From Salinibacterium sp. dk2585 (GTDB lineage Bacteria; Actinomycetota; Actinomycetes; Actinomycetales; Microbacteriaceae), in assembly GCF_008001035.1 (NCBI RefSeq), contig NZ_CP042856.1:2418001-2482000 (forward strand): a stretch of DNA of 64,000 bases, written 5' to 3'. Of this stretch, positions 33,901-51,570 are shown in pieces; positions within the stretch are counted from its first letter, which is position 1; each line of letters starts with the position of its first letter. The notes under the pieces are model-generated. The model was given only the letters and a program-made list of their open reading frames with translations. It ran no database searches and had not been told where the DNA came from. The position numbers were made by a program, and so were the translations under genes.

Positions 33901-33935
33901 TCTCTCGCTGAGACGTGTCCTGCGATAGTGGAGGG

Positions 33936-36260
33936 GTGACTTCCGCAGACGCCAGCCCCGCAGCATCCGCCCCGCTCGCGACGATCGCGACCGAGCCGCC
34001 CGTAGCGCTCAAGCGCCCGAGCGAGCGAGCACACCACGGCGACACCTTCGTCGACGACTACGAGTGGCTGCGCGAGAAGGAGAGCGCAGAGGTCGTCGCG
34101 CACCTTGAGGCCGAGAACGCCCACACGGATGCCGCGACCGCGCACCTGGCAAGCCTGCGCGAGAAGCTCTTCCAGGAGATCAAGGGCCGCGTCAAGGAGA
34201 CCGACCTCGGCGTGCCCGTGCGGGAGGGCGTCTGGTGGTACTACAGCCGCACGGTCGAAGGCCAGCAGTACGCGCTGCACTGCCGCGCCCCGATCGCGAG
34301 CCCCGACGACTGGACGACGCCCGCCCTCCCCGACGACGGCTCCGGCCTGCCGGGCGAGCGGGTGTTGCTCGACGACAACGCCGAGGCGGATGGCCACGAC
34401 TTCTACTCGCTCGGCAGCTTCGACGTGTCGGGCGACGGTTCCCTCATGCTGTGGGCGGTCGACGTCGTCGGTGACGAGCGCTACACGCTGCGGCTGCGGC
34501 CCCTGGCGACGGATGATTCGGGCGACAGTCGCCCCGAACCATCCGAGGTGCCCGGGCCGGTCGACACCCCCGCGCCGCCGCCCGAGGAGGTCATCGAGGG
34601 CATCGCGCCCGGCGCCTTCTTCGACGCGACGGGACGCTACGTCTTCTACACGACTGTTGATGATGCCTGGCGCCCCGACACCGTCTGGCGGCACGAGGTG
34701 GGCACGCCGGCGAGCGCGGACGTCAAGGTGTTCCACGAGCCCGACGACCGCTATTGGGTCGGCGCTGGCCTCACCCGCAGTCGCCGCTACCTCGTCATCC
34801 AGCTGGGCTCCAAGATCACGAGCGAGGCGCACGTGCTCGACGCGAGTGACCCGACCGGCGAGTTCCGGGTGGTGTGGCCGCGGCGCGAGGGCGTCGAGTA
34901 CTCGATCGAGCACGCGATCATCGACGGCGAAGACCGGCTGCTCATCATCCACAACGATGGGGCCCTGGACTTCGAGCTGGTGGATGTCGCGGCATCCGAC
35001 CCGCTCGGCGAGCGCCGCGTGCTCGTTCCGCACCGGCCGGGCATCCGTCTCGAGGATGTGGACGCCTTCGCGACACACCTCGTGCTCGAGTACCGGCGCG
35101 AGGCGCTGCCGAGGGTCGGTATCGCGCGCCTCGGCGGGGTGAGTAGCGCGGTTCGCTCAGAGCCGGCCGCGCGAACCGCGCCGATCGAGCCTGCGAGGGA
35201 GGACAGCGCCACATCGAAACCCGCACCCGAGGGTTTCGATACCGTCGCTGAGCGATTTACTCAGCCCGCGTTCGAAGAACTCGACTTCGACGAAGAACTC
35301 TTCTCCGCCGGCGCCCGCGGCAATCCCGAGTGGACCCAGCCGACCGTGCGCTTCGGCTACACAAGCTTCGTGACGCCCAGCACGGTGAGCGAGTACACGG
35401 TCGCGACCGGCGAGATCCGCGTACTCAAGCAGCAGCCGGTGCTGGGCGGCTACGACCCCGCCGACTATGTGCAGCGCCGCGAGTGGGCGACCGCCGAGGA
35501 TGGCACGCGCATCCCGATCTCGCTCGTGCACCGTCGCGACGTGACCCTGGAGAATGCGCCGACGCTGCTCTACGGCTACGGCTCCTACGAGCACAGCATC
35601 GACCCGGCCTTTTCGATCGCGCGGGTCAGCCTGCTCGACCGCGGCGTCGTCTTTGCGGTCGCGCACGTGCGCGGCGGCGGCGAGATGGGCCGCGACTGGT
35701 ACGAGCATGGCAAGACGCTCACGAAGCGCAACACTTTCACCGACTTCGTCGCGTGCGGGCAGCACCTCGTCGACACGGGCGTGACGACGCCCGAGCGGCT
35801 CATCGCGGAGGGCGGCAGCGCCGGCGGCCTGCTCATGGGCGCCGTCGCGAACCTCGCACCCTCGCTCTTCGCGGGTATCGTCGCGGCGGTTCCCTTCGTC
35901 GACCCGCTGACAAGCATCCTGGATCCCGAACTGCCGCTGACGGTCGTCGAGTGGGACGAGTGGGGCAACCCCCTCGCCGACCCCGAGGTCTACGCCTACA
36001 TGAAGTCGTACTCGCCCTACGAGAACGTGGCGGATGTCGCGTACCCGCGGATTCTCGCCGTCACAAGCTTCAACGACACCCGTGTGCTCTACGTCGAGCC
36101 GGCCAAATGGGTGGCGCGCCTCCGCGAGGTGGGGGCCCCTGTGCTGCTCAAATGCGAGATGGAGGCGGGTCACGGCGGTGTGAGTGGACGCTACAAGGCG
36201 TGGCAGGAGCGCGCGTGGGAACTCGCATGGATGCTCGACGTGTGGGGCATCCGTGACTGA
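33936..36260 (+). CDS. S9 family oligopeptidase (oligopeptidase B-like) with an inserted repeat element
   Basis: A 774-residue serine peptidase cleaving short peptides, probably after basic residues. The N-terminal beta-propeller is followed by the catalytic domain, with Ser628 in GGSAGGLLMG, a catalytic His in EAGHGGVSG, and the Asp in SFNDTRV region. About residues 402-446 form a low-complexity insert between YRREALPRVGIARL and the conserved FDEELFSAG; this coincides with palindromic DNA at 35141-35270. The start is either GTG 33936 or GTG 33915. Its stop overlaps the GTG start of the next gene. Confidence 0.9.
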   Translation: MTSADASPAASAPLATIATEPPVALKRPSERAHHGDTFVDDYEWLREKESAEVVAHLEAENAHTDAATAHLASLREKLFQEIKGRVKETDLGVPVREGVWWYYSRTVEGQQYALHCRAPIASPDDWTTPALPDDGSGLPGERVLLDDNAEADGHDFYSLGSFDVSGDGSLMLWAVDVVGDERYTLRLRPLATDDSGDSRPEPSEVPGPVDTPAPPPEEVIEGIAPGAFFDATGRYVFYTTVDDAWRPDTVWRHEVGTPASADVKVFHEPDDRYWVGAGLTRSRRYLVIQLGSKITSEAHVLDASDPTGEFRVVWPRREGVEYSIEHAIIDGEDRLLIIHNDGALDFELVDVAASDPLGERRVLVPHRPGIRLEDVDAFATHLVLEYRREALPRVGIARLGGVSSAVRSEPAARTAPIEPAREDSATSKPAPEGFDTVAERFTQPAFEELDFDEELFSAGARGNPEWTQPTVRFGYTSFVTPSTVSEYTVATGEIRVLKQQPVLGGYDPADYVQRREWATAEDGTRIPISLVHRRDVTLENAPTLLYGYGSYEHSIDPAFSIARVSLLDRGVVFAVAHVRGGGEMGRDWYEHGKTLTKRNTFTDFVACGQHLVDTGVTTPERLIAEGGSAGGLLMGAVANLAPSLFAGIVAAVPFVDPLTSILDPELPLTVVEWDEWGNPLADPEVYAYMKSYSPYENVADVAYPRILAVTSFNDTRVLYVEPAKWVARLREVGAPVLLKCEMEAGHGGVSGRYKAWQERAWELAWMLDVWGIRD
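35141..35270. repeat. Palindromic element inserted in frame in the oligopeptidase gene
   Basis: Within the coding sequence a segment begins GAGTAGCGCGGTTCGC and ends near GCTGAGCGATTTACTC. It contains a perfect inverted repeat ATCGAAACCC/GGGTTTCGAT at 35213-35222 and 35231-35240, and CGCGGTTCG/CGAACCGCG near the left end. GGTTTCGATAC and GAGTA at opposite ends resemble the dispersed palindromic repeats common in Microbacteriaceae genomes (from memory). It adds about 43 codons without disturbing the frame. Confidence 0.6.
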
Positions 36261-37284
36261 TGCCCCCTTTCCGAACTCAGGAGTTGGCCCTCCCTTCTCA
36301 GGAGCCGGCTTTCCCAACTCAGGAGCCAGCGGTCCCAACTCAGTAGCCAGCTTTCCCAACTCAGAAGCCAGCGTTCCTAGTTCAGGAACGGCCCTCCTGA
36401 GTTCTGGAACCGATCTCCTGAATTCGGAAAGCCAGCTCCTGCAGTGGGAAAGTTGGCGGGGTCGCGAGCGGGAGCACCAGGCGCGGGCCGACGCGCTGAC
36501 CGCCCGGTGGCGCGCGCGGCAGCAGTCGGGCTCGAAGCATCCCGTCGACGACTTCCTCTTCACGTACTACCCGGTGCGCCCCGCGACCCTGCGCCGCTGG
36601 CACCCGGGAGCGGGCGTCACGCTCGAGGGCGCCGCGACCAAGGAGCGCGCCGCCTGGAAGTGGTACCTGGTCGAGGGTGACGACGTGCGCGTCGACACGG
36701 CGGCGCTGCTCGCCCAGCGCGAGTCCAGCATCCGCTTCATCGTGTCGCTGCTGCAGAAGACGGCGACCCGACAGGCGAACTTCGGATGCTTCGGGCTGCA
36801 CGAATGGGCCATGGTGTACCGCTCAGACGAGACCCGTCACGAGGTGCCGCTGCGGCTCGGTGGCGCGGGCACGAACGAGGTCGTCGAGGGACACCGCATC
36901 GCGTGCAGCCACTTCGATGCGTTCCGCTTTTTCACGCCCGAGGCGGTGAGCCGAAACCGGCTTGTACCGAGCCGCGACAACCAGCCCGAACTTGAGCAGC
37001 CCGGCTGCCTGCACGCGGGCATGGACGTCTACAAGTGGGTCACGAAGCTCGGCCCGCTCGTGCCCGGCGAGGTGTTGCTCGACGCCTTCGAGTTGGCGCG
37101 CGACATCCGCCAGCTCGACATGCGCGCATCGCCGTATGACCTGCGCGAGTGGGGTTACCAGCCGGTCACTATTGAGACGCCCGAGGGCAAGGCGGAGTAT
37201 GTGCGCGAGCAGCGCGGCTTCGCCGAGCGCGGCAATGCGCTCCGGGAGCGCGTCATCGCGGCGGTCGTTCCCCTGTTGGGCTGA
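36253..37284 (+). CDS. Conserved actinobacterial protein (often labelled 3-methyladenine DNA glycosylase) with repeat-built N-terminus
   Basis: A 343-residue reading from GTG 36253, which overlaps the oligopeptidase stop. Residues from about 62 onward follow a conserved family: LLQWESWRGREREHQARADAL, HPVDDFLFTYYPVRP, GCFGLHEWAMVYR, EQPGCLHAGMDVYKW and LDMRASPYDL. Databases often name it 3-methyladenine DNA glycosylase, but I know no biochemical proof. Residues 6-68 are nine 7-residue repeats (FPNSGAS type) encoded by 21-bp DNA repeats. The last repeat, LLQWESW, is also the start of the conserved domain. The true start may therefore be nearer 36430. Confidence 0.75.
   Translation: MTDAPFPNSGVGPPFSGAGFPNSGASGPNSVASFPNSEASVPSSGTALLSSGTDLLNSESQLLQWESWRGREREHQARADALTARWRARQQSGSKHPVDDFLFTYYPVRPATLRRWHPGAGVTLEGAATKERAAWKWYLVEGDDVRVDTAALLAQRESSIRFIVSLLQKTATRQANFGCFGLHEWAMVYRSDETRHEVPLRLGGAGTNEVVEGHRIACSHFDAFRFFTPEAVSRNRLVPSRDNQPELEQPGCLHAGMDVYKWVTKLGPLVPGEVLLDAFELARDIRQLDMRASPYDLREWGYQPVTIETPEGKAEYVREQRGFAERGNALRERVIAAVVPLLG
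36268..36456. repeat. Nine-unit 21-bp repeat array at the 5' end of a gene
   Basis: Exactly nine contiguous 21-bp units. Units 1-5 follow TTTCCCAACTCAGGAGCCAG(C), and units 6-9 shift to the reverse-complement-like CTCCTGAGTTGGGAAAG type. All are in frame with the downstream gene and keep a 7-residue periodicity with no stop codon. The final unit overlaps the conserved protein start. Not a CRISPR: there are no spacers. Confidence 0.85.
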
Positions 37285-37331
37285 ACGTCCTGCCGGCCGC
37301 CCACCGCCCCCGCTCGCCACGCGGGAGTTGG

Positions 37332-37430
37332 CTTTTCCAGTACTCAGGAACTCCTGAGTTGGGAAAGCGAACTCCTGAGTTGGGAAAGCGAACTCCTGAG
37401 TTGGGAAAGCTGGCTCCTGAGTTGGGAAAG
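37332..37430. repeat. Second 21-bp repeat array between convergent genes
   Basis: CTCCTGAGTTGGGAAAGC units start at 37351, 37372, 37393 and 37414 (the last is partial), at 21-bp spacing; an inverted partial copy TTTTCCAGTACTCAGGAA lies at 37333-37350. It fills the gap between two convergent genes and ends 2 bp before the stop of the DarT-like gene. Orientation is opposite to units 1-5 of the first array, so the arrays form large inverted repeats around the gene at 36253-37284. Confidence 0.85.
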
Positions 37431-37432
37431 GG

Positions 37433-38323
37433 CTAGGAGCGAACGAACCAGGGCGGGTACACGGCAACGCGGATGTTGACGCCCGCGTCAGCCAGCACCG
37501 CCTTGACCTCATCGCGCGCCTTGGAGTTGGCGACGCCGATGAGGGAGATCGCCTCGATCGGCACGGGTCCGGCCACGAGCAGTTCAACGCCGGCGAGGGG
37601 TCGCTCGTCACCGTCGAGCGCCTCGATCGCGATGAGTCGACGCAGTTCGCGCCGGAGGGCGACAGGGTCGGCCGTCATGGGGGCGGTGGGGGCGGATGCC
37701 TCGTCGAGCGCGAGCACGAGTGGTGCCGCCTTCTCGATCTCGGCGACGGTCGTGGCGAGCATCACGTAGTCGCCGACCGAGCTCGTGCGCGCGGCTGCGC
37801 TGAGGCGGGGGTCGGGAGTGCCCGAGCGGATGTCGCCCCACAGCCCCGATTCGGGCGTTGCGAAGAAGGGCACGCAGTCGGCGACGACGCTGGGTGCTGA
37901 TTCCTCGGCCTCGACGGCATCCGTGCCGGTTTCGGCCGAGGCCGCGAGTCCGGCGGCGGCCTGCGCGGGCGCGGTAACCGCCTCAGGGAGTGTCGCCGCG
38001 CGCCGCTGCTCGCGGTGCGAGGGCGAACTGATGTCGATGTTGGGCTCGACCGAGTTCGCGGGGAGCAGCGCACCCCTCTCGGCGATGCCGGCGAGGTTGC
38101 GCACGTGCGTCAGGTGGAACACGCGGTGCGCCTCGACGTTGATGGGCTTGTCGACGGGGGCACCCGGGGCGCGCTTCGCGATCGCGGGGCGCGCGGGGCG
38201 CGGTGCCCCTGCGGAGGCGCGGGGCGTGCGGGCCTTGGTGACCTTCGGCGGTGCAGCGGGCGCGGGCTTGGGCGAACAGATGTCGCAGAGTTCTTTATCG
38301 AGTCCGTGGATGCATTCGCTCAC
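37433..38323 (-). CDS. DarT-like ADP-ribosyltransferase with N-terminal Cys motif
   Basis: A 296-residue protein. The N-terminus MSECIHGLDKELCDIC has a CxHx8CxxC zinc-type pattern, followed by a Pro/Ala/Lys-rich linker to about 60. The remainder aligns with DarT (DUF4433) DNA ADP-ribosyltransferases: VFHLTHVRNLAGIAERGALL (His70, His73), HREQRRAATLP (Arg107 likely matches the NAD-binding Arg), VADCVPFFATPESGLW, and GVELLVAGPVPIEAIS with Glu247 at the catalytic Glu position. A 35-residue low-complexity insert splits the NAD site region. No macrodomain antitoxin (DarG) is adjacent. Function is unknown; a toxin or DNA-modifying role is plausible. Confidence 0.7.
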   Translation of the reverse strand: MSECIHGLDKELCDICSPKPAPAAPPKVTKARTPRASAGAPRPARPAIAKRAPGAPVDKPINVEAHRVFHLTHVRNLAGIAERGALLPANSVEPNIDISSPSHREQRRAATLPEAVTAPAQAAAGLAASAETGTDAVEAEESAPSVVADCVPFFATPESGLWGDIRSGTPDPRLSAAARTSSVGDYVMLATTVAEIEKAAPLVLALDEASAPTAPMTADPVALRRELRRLIAIEALDGDERPLAGVELLVAGPVPIEAISLIGVANSKARDEVKAVLADAGVNIRVAVYPPWFVRS

Positions 38324-38410
38324 GCCGGGGGGCCTTTCGTCTCGGCATCCGCTGGGGCTAGGGCTGCCACTTCCAGAGTACGCGGCCCACAGACTCCCCG
38401 GCGACCGGGC

Positions 38411-39115
38411 TCAGGCGCTCTTGGCCTGCGCGGCCTCTCGATAGGTGGCGGTGACGAGGATCGGCATGTGGTCGGATGTGCCGCGCGGCAGCGTCTCGAC
38501 GCTGCCGATCTCGAGCCCCATCGAGGTGGCGAGGTCGAAGTGTCCTCGGAAGAACTTGTAGCGCGTGTAGGTGCGCGTGTCACTGAGCGTGAGGTCGTAG
38601 CCGTTCTCGCCGACCCGCCGCGTGAGCTGGTTCTTGAAGACCGGGTAGTTGTAGTCGCCGACCATAAGAGTGGGCAGACCAGGGCCCATGGCGTGCAGTT
38701 GCTCGTGCGCGACCCGGATCTGCTCGCGTCGCAGCGAGTTGAGGGCGGTGAGCGGTGCGGCGTGGAAGGAGGCGACCACGACCTCGCAGTCGTGCTTGAG
38801 GTCGACGAGGCGACTGCCGAGCAGGCGCTCGTGGGCGGGCTTCAGGAGGTGGTCGTGGAGCGACTTCTTGAGTTCGAATGCCTTCGTCTCGGTCGCCGTG
38901 AAGCGATCGCGACGGTAGTAGACGGCGAGGCCGAGCCGGTTGCGCCTCGTCGCATCGGCGAGGTGCATGCCGCCCACCTCGGCGGGAAGTTCGGCCGTGT
39001 CTGCCTCCTGCAGGCACATCAGGTCGAGGTCGTGTTCCTCGGCGAGCGCCTCAATCTCCCCCACCGCGCGGTGCTTGCGCAGGTTATAACTGACGACTTT
39101 CACTGCATTCCTCAA
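38411..39115 (-). CDS. Endonuclease/exonuclease/phosphatase family protein
   Basis: A 234-residue protein with the EEP fold: VVSYNLRKH at the N-terminus, MCLQEADTAE (metal-binding Glu), VVASFHAAPLTA, LMVGDYNYP (Asp and Asn) and GTSDHMPILVTA with the terminal Asp-His pair. Members hydrolyse phosphodiester bonds in nucleic acids or phospholipids. There is no signal peptide, so it should be cytosolic. It lies 87 bp upstream of the DarT-like gene on the same strand; a functional link is possible but unsupported. Confidence 0.88.
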   Translation of the reverse strand: MRNAVKVVSYNLRKHRAVGEIEALAEEHDLDLMCLQEADTAELPAEVGGMHLADATRRNRLGLAVYYRRDRFTATETKAFELKKSLHDHLLKPAHERLLGSRLVDLKHDCEVVVASFHAAPLTALNSLRREQIRVAHEQLHAMGPGLPTLMVGDYNYPVFKNQLTRRVGENGYDLTLSDTRTYTRYKFFRGHFDLATSMGLEIGSVETLPRGTSDHMPILVTATYREAAQAKSA

Positions 39116-50153: not shown

Positions 50154-51344
50154 ATGACCGAGACGATCCGCACCCAGGTCGGCATCATCGGGGCCGGCCC
50201 TGCCGGCCTCCTGCTCTCCCACCTCCTCGACCGCGCGGGCATCTCCTCGGTCGTGATCGACAAGCGCAGCCGGGAGGACATCGAGAAGACGATCCGCGCC
50301 GGCATCCTCGAGCAGGGCACGGTCGACGTGCTCGTCAACACGGGCGTCAGCGACCGCGTGCTGCGCGACGGCCACAAGCACGACGGCATCGAGCTGCGCT
50401 TCCAGGGCGAGGGCCACCGCATCGACTTCCCGTCACTCGTCGGCCGTTCCGTCTACCTCTATCCGCAGCACGAGGTGCTGATCGACCTCATCGCCTCGCG
50501 CCTTGCCGCGGGAGCAGACATCCGCTTCGGCGCCAGCAATGCGGCGCTGCACGGCCAGCTCAGCGACAGCCCAAGCATCAGCTTCACGGATGATTCGGGG
50601 CAGGATCTCGTGGTCGAATGCGACTTCATCGCGGGCACCGACGGCTCGCAGGGCATCGCCAAATGGTCGATCCCCGAGACCGATCGCCGCGACTTCTTCC
50701 GCCCCTACCCCTTCGCCTGGTTCGGCATCCTCGCCGAGGCGTCGCCCAGCAGCGAGGAGCTCATCTACAGCGCGGGCGACAACGGCTTCGCCCTCATCAG
50801 CCAGCGAAGCGAGACCGTGCAGCGCATGTACTTCCAGTGCGACCCCGAGACCGACACGAACACCTGGGGCGAGGAGCAGATCTGGGATGAGCTGCAGGCG
50901 CGCGTGCCCGGCCACGAGCTCAAGCGCGGGCACATCTTCCAGAAGGACGTGCTCCAGTTCCGTTCCTACGTCTGCGAGACCATGCAGTACGGCCGCATGT
51001 TCCTCGCGGGGGACGCGGCCCACACGGTGCCGCCGACCGGCGCCAAGGGCATGAACCTCGCGGTCGCCGACGTGCTCGTGCTCGCCGACGCCATGACGGC
51101 CTACTTCGACAACGGCAGCACCGAGAAGCTCGACAACTACGCTCCGACCGCGCTCAAGCGCATCTGGCGCGGCCAGCAGTTCTCCTACTGGATGACGTCA
51201 ATGCTGCACGCGACACCCGACGAGCACCCCTTCGACAAGCAGCGCCGCTACGGCGAACTCGAGACGGTCACGAGCTCGCCCGCCGGCCAGACCTACCTCG
51301 CAGAGGCGTACACGGGGTGGCCCTTCGACGTCAGCTATAGCTAG
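50154..51344 (+). CDS. pobA: 4-hydroxybenzoate 3-monooxygenase
   Basis: A 396-residue FAD monooxygenase converting 4-hydroxybenzoate to protocatechuate with NAD(P)H and oxygen. The FAD-binding GAGPAGLLLSHLL is at 12-25, the DG motif and FIAGTDGSQG at about 160-168, and GDAAHTVPPTGAKGMNLAV near 284. AAAGGAG before ATG at 50154 fixes the start. Family length is 390-395. The protocatechuate pathway genes are not in the window. The last 8 codons fall inside a 107-bp tandem repeat. Confidence 0.95.
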   Translation: MTETIRTQVGIIGAGPAGLLLSHLLDRAGISSVVIDKRSREDIEKTIRAGILEQGTVDVLVNTGVSDRVLRDGHKHDGIELRFQGEGHRIDFPSLVGRSVYLYPQHEVLIDLIASRLAAGADIRFGASNAALHGQLSDSPSISFTDDSGQDLVVECDFIAGTDGSQGIAKWSIPETDRRDFFRPYPFAWFGILAEASPSSEELIYSAGDNGFALISQRSETVQRMYFQCDPETDTNTWGEEQIWDELQARVPGHELKRGHIFQKDVLQFRSYVCETMQYGRMFLAGDAAHTVPPTGAKGMNLAVADVLVLADAMTAYFDNGSTEKLDNYAPTALKRIWRGQQFSYWMTSMLHATPDEHPFDKQRRYGELETVTSSPAGQTYLAEAYTGWPFDVSYS

Positions 51345-51570
51345 GTCGTCACCGCCCTCGCAGGCTCGGTCGGCGCTGGGGTCGCGCGACCGCTCCGCGC
51401 TCGCCTCGAGCTCCACCGCGCGGGTGGCCCTTCGACGTCAGCTATAGCTAGGTCGTCACCGCCCTCGCAGGCTCGGTCGGCGCTGGGGTCGCGCGACCGC
51501 TCCGCGCTCGCCTCGAGCTCCCCGCGCGGGGTGGCCCTTCGACGTCAGCTATAGCTAGGTCGTCACCGCC
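51315..51570. repeat. 107-bp tandem direct repeat spanning the pobA 3' end
   Basis: Unit boundaries at GGGTGGCCCTTCGACG occur at 51315, 51422 and 51529, exactly 107 bp apart. Copies 1 and 2 are almost identical along their whole length (a few changes at the end); the third stops after about 42 bp. Each copy repeats the last codons and stop of pobA, so the two downstream copies duplicate part of the coding sequence. Confidence 0.85.

Follow-up and report, generated by a model that had tools for sequence, protein, structure and literature searches.

The nine 21-bp repeats that read as the N-terminus of a conserved actinobacterial gene are probably a REP/BIME-like hairpin array that lay behind the stop codon of a prolyl oligopeptidase (S9) gene and was captured by the reading frame of the gene that follows. 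The array occupies positions 36268-36456 of the window, that is, of the whole 64,000-nucleotide stretch of DNA analysed here, which corresponds to positions 2,418,001-2,482,000 of the G000 contig. The features of the locus are given below in window coordinates.

33915-36260, forward strand: prolyl oligopeptidase (S9) gene (Pfam PF02897, E 7.6e-91; PF00326, E 2.2e-62)
36253-36255, forward strand: GTG overlapping the S9 stop codon (GTGACTGA), from the list of in-frame starts and the sequence
36258-36460, forward strand: predicted long hairpin, comprising the whole array behind the S9 gene (RNA fold)
36267-36389, forward strand: forward arm, six CTTTCCCAACTCAGGAG-type units in 21-bp steps (weight-matrix scan, TRF)
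36394-36452, reverse strand: reverse arm, three units (weight-matrix scan, codon listing)
36430-37284, forward strand: conserved actinobacterial gene, with the array as its predicted N-terminus (alignment of relatives)
37332-37430, no strand assigned: further array of this family, in the gap separating two convergent genes (TRF, 16-mer matches)
37433-38323, reverse strand: DarT-like gene (PF14487, E 2.1e-14)

The repeat unit consists of CTTTCCCAACTCAGGAG plus 4 nt and occurs in inverted-repeat arrays with a 21-bp step. The initial annotation had described nine 21-nt units at 36268-36456 together with the heptads they encode, and a codon listing reproduces both exactly; likewise, the aligned rows show that the last unit (LLQWESW) supplies the first residues of the conserved domain, so that the last unit of the reverse arm overlaps the first codons of that domain. 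The arms are inverted as had been proposed, but the suggested division into five and four units does not hold, since the weight-matrix scan gives six forward units, of which the second and sixth are degenerate, and three reverse units. Matches to the unit 16-mer with up to 3 mismatches number 11 in the window, versus 0.23 expected from shuffles. The predicted RNA fold of 36258-36460 has an energy of -89.9 kcal/mol (z -4.97), with none of 200 shuffles as good. An Rfam search of 35000-39000 returned three weak matches, all under the gathering score, and a described RNA family was discarded on this ground as the identity of the array.

The same 21-bp unit recurs on the opposite side of the conserved gene, where the array at 37332-37430, directly behind the stop codon of the DarT-like gene, contains four reverse units and one degenerate forward unit, the latter identified by eye; the fold of 37285-37433 has an RNA z of -4.10. 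The DarT-like gene itself scores under the NCBIfam DarT cut-off and has a long N-terminal part beyond the PF14487 match. Elsewhere in the window, a 107-bp unit is repeated in tandem at 51313-51570 (2.4 copies with 98% matches).

The unit belongs to a dispersed family. In the 2,835,338-base, single-contig genome of G000 there are 84 copies with at most 2 mismatches, compared with 0 for a reversed-pattern control, and a weight matrix built from these 84 units, preselected at up to 2 mismatches from CTTTCCCAACTCAGGAG, defines 38 loci in 27 stretches around the copies; the stretches were picked around known copies, and the context figures that follow describe the arrays rather than the genome. The family is narrowly distributed: with at most 1 mismatch, the unit is found 46 times in G000, 32 times in G001 and as a single match in G010, and 56 of 59 genomes have none. 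Paired TCAGGA cores 21 bp apart give a similar picture, with 63 in G000 and 52 in G001 (2 and 5 in the reversed controls) and 0-5 in the other 57 of the 59 genomes.

Most of these arrays sit at the ends of genes. By gene calls made with a simple codon-score method, in which single cases may be wrong, 36 of the 38 loci are not wholly within a called gene, the exceptions being the array at 36268-36456 and that at 206468. Half of the loci (19/38) fall in gaps between convergent genes; of the 233 adjacent gene pairs in these stretches, 42 are convergent. When the unit threshold is relaxed, a stop codon on the same strand is found within 400 nt for 49 of 69 arms, and 46 of 69 begin between -10 and +30 nt from it. 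The units are oriented in the coding sense of the gene ending there, and a convergent gap thus contains forward units, a loop and reverse units. This forward-then-reverse arrangement is seen at 27 of the 38 loci in G000 (nine have one arm and two have repeated alternation) and at 29 of the 37 in G001 (seven and one, respectively). Since ordinary GC-rich hairpins adjoin some of the arrays, the arrays need not be terminators.

The similarity of the two arms within a locus was also compared with shuffles. Inner arms and spacers match perfectly at some loci, among them G000:187551 and, for its two innermost unit pairs, 2507358, and the inner-arm identity within G000 loci (0.834) is in slight excess over the shuffles (mean 0.784, maximum 0.830 of 2000). 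In G001 the corresponding identity is 0.847, versus 0.814 across loci, and it lies within the shuffles, the highest of which reached 0.851. Spacers match in six of eight G000 loci, a value of 3.25 that is within the shuffle range (highest 3.38), and in two of six G001 loci, with no excess over shuffles.

At the junction in question, the S9 stop codon occupies 36258-36260 and the array starts 6 nt further on. The conserved gene is 57-70% identical to the best 80 of 593 relatives; it has no Pfam or NCBIfam match and is putatively a 3-methyladenine DNA glycosylase. Ahead of GTG 36574, which is within the conserved domain, the only in-frame ATG, GTG or TTG codons are GTG 36253 and GTG 36184, the latter within the S9 gene. 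GTG 36253 is accompanied only by a weak Shine-Dalgarno-like stretch (GTGGGG).

The conserved gene is present in all five genus genomes, and a comparison of the junctions is informative. In G001 (90% identity) the array has five units in place of nine, the open frame is 28 codons (four units) shorter, and the GTG that overlaps the S9 stop is kept, as in G000. Thus, a change in unit number, for which the initial annotation had suggested comparing sister strains, is indeed seen, here between species. In G002 (83%) the junction carries units in both orientations with a different wording, TTTCATCATTCAGGA, compared with TTTC[CA]CAA[CT]TCAGGAG in G000 and G001. The AGGAG of the G002 forward unit lies 6 nt ahead of an in-frame GTG, and the repeat may therefore supply a ribosome binding site in this orthologue; the GTG is 47 codons before the conserved His and upstream of the reverse arm. 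In G003 and G004 there is no array at the junction and no S9 gene in the flank examined, and the gene has an ordinary ATG.

The coding frame is the sole stop-free frame across the array in G000, G001 and G002, with 1, 0 and 3 stops per frame in G000, 3, 0 and 3 in G001, and 0, 4 and 4 in G002. An open frame in three species favours translation, to a modest degree because about one in three frames is open in any array (a mean of 1.09 of 3 per array in G000 and 0.91 of 3 in G001) and because the species share ancestry. As the coding frame is the only one free of stops in all three arrays, translation from GTG 36253 appears likely on sequence grounds.

The position of the start relative to the conserved domain points to how the array was acquired. 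In 80 orthologues, the median distance from the conserved His back to the closest in-frame start is 15 codons (10-90% range 11-23, maximum 42), while the corresponding distance is 74 codons in G000, 46 in G001, 41 in G002 and 12 in both G003 and G004. Only G000 and G001 are beyond the range of the orthologues, the 41 of G002 being inside it, and the orthologue with a distance of 42 carries no array evidence. An S9 gene is found in the flanks (up to 2.5 kb, a few shorter) of G000, G001 and G002 only, among 85 loci. The start distances and the restriction of the S9 flank to array-bearing species suggest that the array most likely came with the end of the S9 gene and replaced the conserved gene's own start.

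The initial annotation had offered two origins for the repeats, growth from the gene's own 5' end or capture of a repeat element by the reading frame. The former is not supported, given the dispersed family to which the array belongs, its position 6 nt behind the S9 gene and the short distances at which array-free orthologues start. The latter gains support from the occurrence of the element at 38 loci, most of them directly behind stop codons. At G000:2793210-2793351 the reverse unit CTCCTGAATGATGAAAG seems to hold the initiation codon of the following gene, which may be a second instance of an array providing a gene start.

A plausible course of events can be proposed for the capture. The array hairpin would have served to protect or end the S9 transcript, and a rearrangement would have set the S9 gene and its hairpin ahead of the conserved gene, removing the latter's own start. 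Translation would then begin at GTG 36253, by coupling to termination at the S9 stop codon, and continue across the hairpin, and the repeats would have become an extension of the N-terminus, tolerated but not selected for. With a unit of 21 bp, or seven codons, such an extension can change in length by gain or loss of whole units without loss of frame.

Two other views of the extension need to be considered against capture. One, which we regard as unlikely, is that the array is untranslated and the repeats are only the leader of the conserved gene and the tail of the S9 gene, with translation starting at a non-standard codon such as the CTG of the last unit (LLQW). The segment between the array and the conserved domain does contain in-frame CTG codons and no ATG, GTG or TTG, and a start in the last unit would fit the median distance of the orthologues; however, the conserved overlap of GTG 36253 with the S9 stop in G000 and G001, the location of the AGGAG-preceded GTG ahead of the reverse arm in G002, and the coding frame as the sole open frame in all three species argue for translation. 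The other view, that selection maintains the array as a low-complexity domain at the N-terminus of the conserved protein, draws on the same open frame and on the difference of precisely four whole units between G000 and G001. It is highly improbable in light of the recurrence of the unit at 38 loci, nearly all of them not wholly inside a called gene, the extension sequence, which is almost entirely different between G000 and G002 and absent from G003 and G004, and the 80 orthologues that start close to the domain.

How the capturable element itself evolves can be seen by comparing loci across the genus, for which flanks cut clear of the arrays were mapped. On the G000 stretches, positions were found for 33 of the 37 G001 loci and not for the other four. 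An array is present in the same G000 gap for 29 of the 33 (two of the 29 being contig ends of one locus); two others lack an above-threshold array in G000 and two are placed by one flank only. The two G000 gaps without an array hold, respectively, a member of a second hairpin family and a degenerate pair. At G000:185407-185495 there is a hairpin of the second family, while the matching gap at G001:C8:1008502-1008601 has an array of the 21-bp family, suggesting that hairpin families can replace one another.

Placement is sparser in G002, where 18 of 38 G000 loci could be matched to a stretch, in several cases loosely. Of these 18, seven have an array in a G002 wording (163598, 187551, 2092952, 2267194, 2454267, 2455351 and 2793210) and 11 have none, a proportion that is not an unbiased rate, as the stretches were picked from G000 positions and G002 copies. 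At 2455351 a third wording, GGAAATTCAGGAAA, is found in G002, and a wording near that of G002 is kept at two G000 loci (CTTTCATCATTCAGGAG at 2793334 and CTTTCATGATTCAGGAC at 2267194). The simplest reading of these sequences is that many arrays are old, stay in place, vary in unit number and have been rewritten together. The REP-like family is found here in G000 and G001, with differently worded relatives in G002.

The arrays are unevenly distributed along the chromosome. The dnaA gene is at 0.6-1.1 kb in G000, and the number of loci per 200 kb declines with distance from the origin (14, 10, 6, 5, 3, 0 and 0; KS p 6e-6, with loci treated as independent). The interval from 822,070 to 1,935,688 of the 2,835,338 bases, the middle 39% around the expected terminus, contains none of the 38 loci; the terminus was placed by symmetry only, the GC skew being too weak. 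A p value of 6e-9 for the gap was set aside in favour of the KS test because the limits of the gap came from the data.

Convergent gene pairs are comparably frequent in a 400-kb sample of the gap (60/339) and in 400 kb elsewhere that were selected to lie clear of known arrays (64/354); of the convergent gaps, 6 of 20 and 6 of 30, respectively, contain strong stems. Each sample has one inverted pair, a degenerate one at 886.5 kb in the gap and one at 684 kb in the other, and the gap sample also has three weak single matches. Because of these matches and the degenerate pair, the gap is not an absolute one. No other repeat wording emerged from a de novo k-mer search of 400 kb on the terminus side.

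In addition to the 21-bp arrays, our analysis reveals two further hairpin families. The second family, GAGTGGCCAAA[GC]TTTCGGC...GCCGAAAGTTTGGCCACTC, is unrelated in sequence and has about 17 loci in G000 (for example, G000:403225), located at 87,901-772,762 and 2,249,799-2,777,078, with no locus between 773 kb and 2,249 kb; there are seven sites in G001, one in G002 and none in G003 or G004. The third family, TTGAGTAG...CGNATCGAAAC, is present in G000, G001, G002 and G004 and in 13 genomes of other genera (13 of the 59 further genomes, outside the genus; 14 of 60 family genomes counting G000). Its five G000 loci all fall outside the gap, a result that does not reach significance by itself (p 0.08); G002 has no copy on C9:1-1,033,016, the side away from dnaA. 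In G064, whose genome is 3.3 Mb, one copy lies about 1.38 Mb away from dnaA; the terminus-gap rule may therefore not be general, and any gap would be narrower in that genome.

Several explanations for the family as a whole can be set beside that of gene-end hairpins that are mostly inherited in place. A palindrome mobilized by a Y1 transposase of the REP-associated type, or by a similar enzyme, would account for dispersed palindromic repeats confined to a few related genomes, and yet we consider it very unlikely: the Y1 transposase (PF01797) is found in none of the five genus genomes, while the same search is positive in 5 of 14 control genomes, and the 29 of 33 placed G001 loci that share a G000 gap indicate that the loci are mostly inherited and not hopping. 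Mobility was rejected for Y1/RAYT transposases, the type searched. The viral contig collection contains no copy of the exact 17-mer, which counts against mobility as well and eliminates a viral source of that 17-mer. A further candidate, DNA uptake sequences with species dialects that spread by biased uptake, could explain why wordings differ at shared sites. Uptake sequences are, however, far more numerous than the 84 close copies found here, and they are not known for tandem arrays of 21 bp or for a terminus region devoid of copies, which makes this origin most improbable even with inverted pairs tied to terminators as in the Neisseriaceae (PMC3630211, in excerpt).

The distribution around the origin bears on two proposals of chromosome-scale function. 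By analogy, the arrays may be positional marks for a DNA-binding protein, like Noc or SlmA sites, that are kept off the terminus. The position of dnaA at 1 kb, the falling counts and the empty region are in keeping with this, as is the sparseness or absence of Noc and SlmA sites near the terminus (PMC4726725, in excerpt), but the proposal is distinctly unlikely given that the unrelated second family has the same gap, so that exclusion is not tied to one motif, that the gene-end hairpins vary in arm length and loop and do not form one fixed palindrome, and that degenerate and weak matches occur on the terminus side. A broader and tentative proposal, which we also regard as unlikely, is that the gene-end hairpin arrays form a co-evolving, origin-centred system that is rewritten in concert and nearly excluded around the terminus, with the capture as a by-product. 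A chromosome-scale force would then set the sites at which arrays are permitted, for example hairpin processing in terminus segregation or a trans-acting factor that binds hairpins. Both the concerted rewriting and the terminus gap are based on two or three genomes.

If the repeats were captured as proposed, the case shows how protein sequence can arise from a non-coding hairpin at a gene end, which supplants the start of another gene with the frame kept, and the three species with an array and the two array-free relatives provide snapshots of such a capture. The family is also a tractable case in which to ask how scattered repeats can be reworded at many sites when no Y1 transposase is present, and why hairpin repeats become scarcer towards the terminus of replication. 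Among the titles and opening abstract lines surveyed, none describes these repeats or a terminus gap of such repeats in this bacterial family, a weak negative.

Among known systems, the closest parallel is with the REP and BIME elements of enterobacteria and pseudomonads. REP elements are palindromic repeats scattered through extragenic regions, frequently in gaps between convergent genes (PMC1525189), and form clusters of alternating orientation whose units carry a GT(A/G)G head (PMC2817692); gyrase cleaves at BIMEs (PMC6379681), according to excerpts of these three sources. The arrays share with them the many dispersed palindromic copies mostly outside genes (84 copies at 38 loci), the opposite orientation of units within clusters (27 of 38 loci forward then reverse) and the frequent location between convergent genes. 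They differ in that the unit consensus CTTTCCCAACTCAGGAG is without the GT(A/G)G head given in the excerpt of PMC2817692, that no Y1 transposase family is found in the five genus genomes, that the arms are tandem arrays with mostly a 21-bp step in G000, and that the wording varies between species at shared sites. The arrays thus fall outside the RAYT-linked REP class on two features, the Y1 transposase and the GT(A/G)G head.

Compared with Neisseriaceae uptake sequences, the present family has far fewer copies, tandem arrays and a terminus gap. Species dialects and inverted pairs linked to terminators, which an excerpt of PMC3630211 reports for the Neisseriaceae, are common to both. Noc and SlmA sites, like the arrays, number in the tens and are uneven over the chromosome, being sparse or absent near the terminus (PMC4726725, in excerpt); the difference is that here hairpin arrays lie behind genes and a second, unrelated repeat family shares the pattern. 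Rickettsia palindromic elements, of about 150 bp, are inserted in genes in nearly half of the cases and are read in frame in unrelated proteins (PMC10969869, in excerpt). The present array, a palindromic repeat, would resemble them if it is read in frame with a protein gene, as the open frame predicts. Unlike the Rickettsia elements, however, it belongs to a family that is normally behind genes, was probably captured at a gene junction, and has one clear and one possible case (G000:2793210) among 38 loci.
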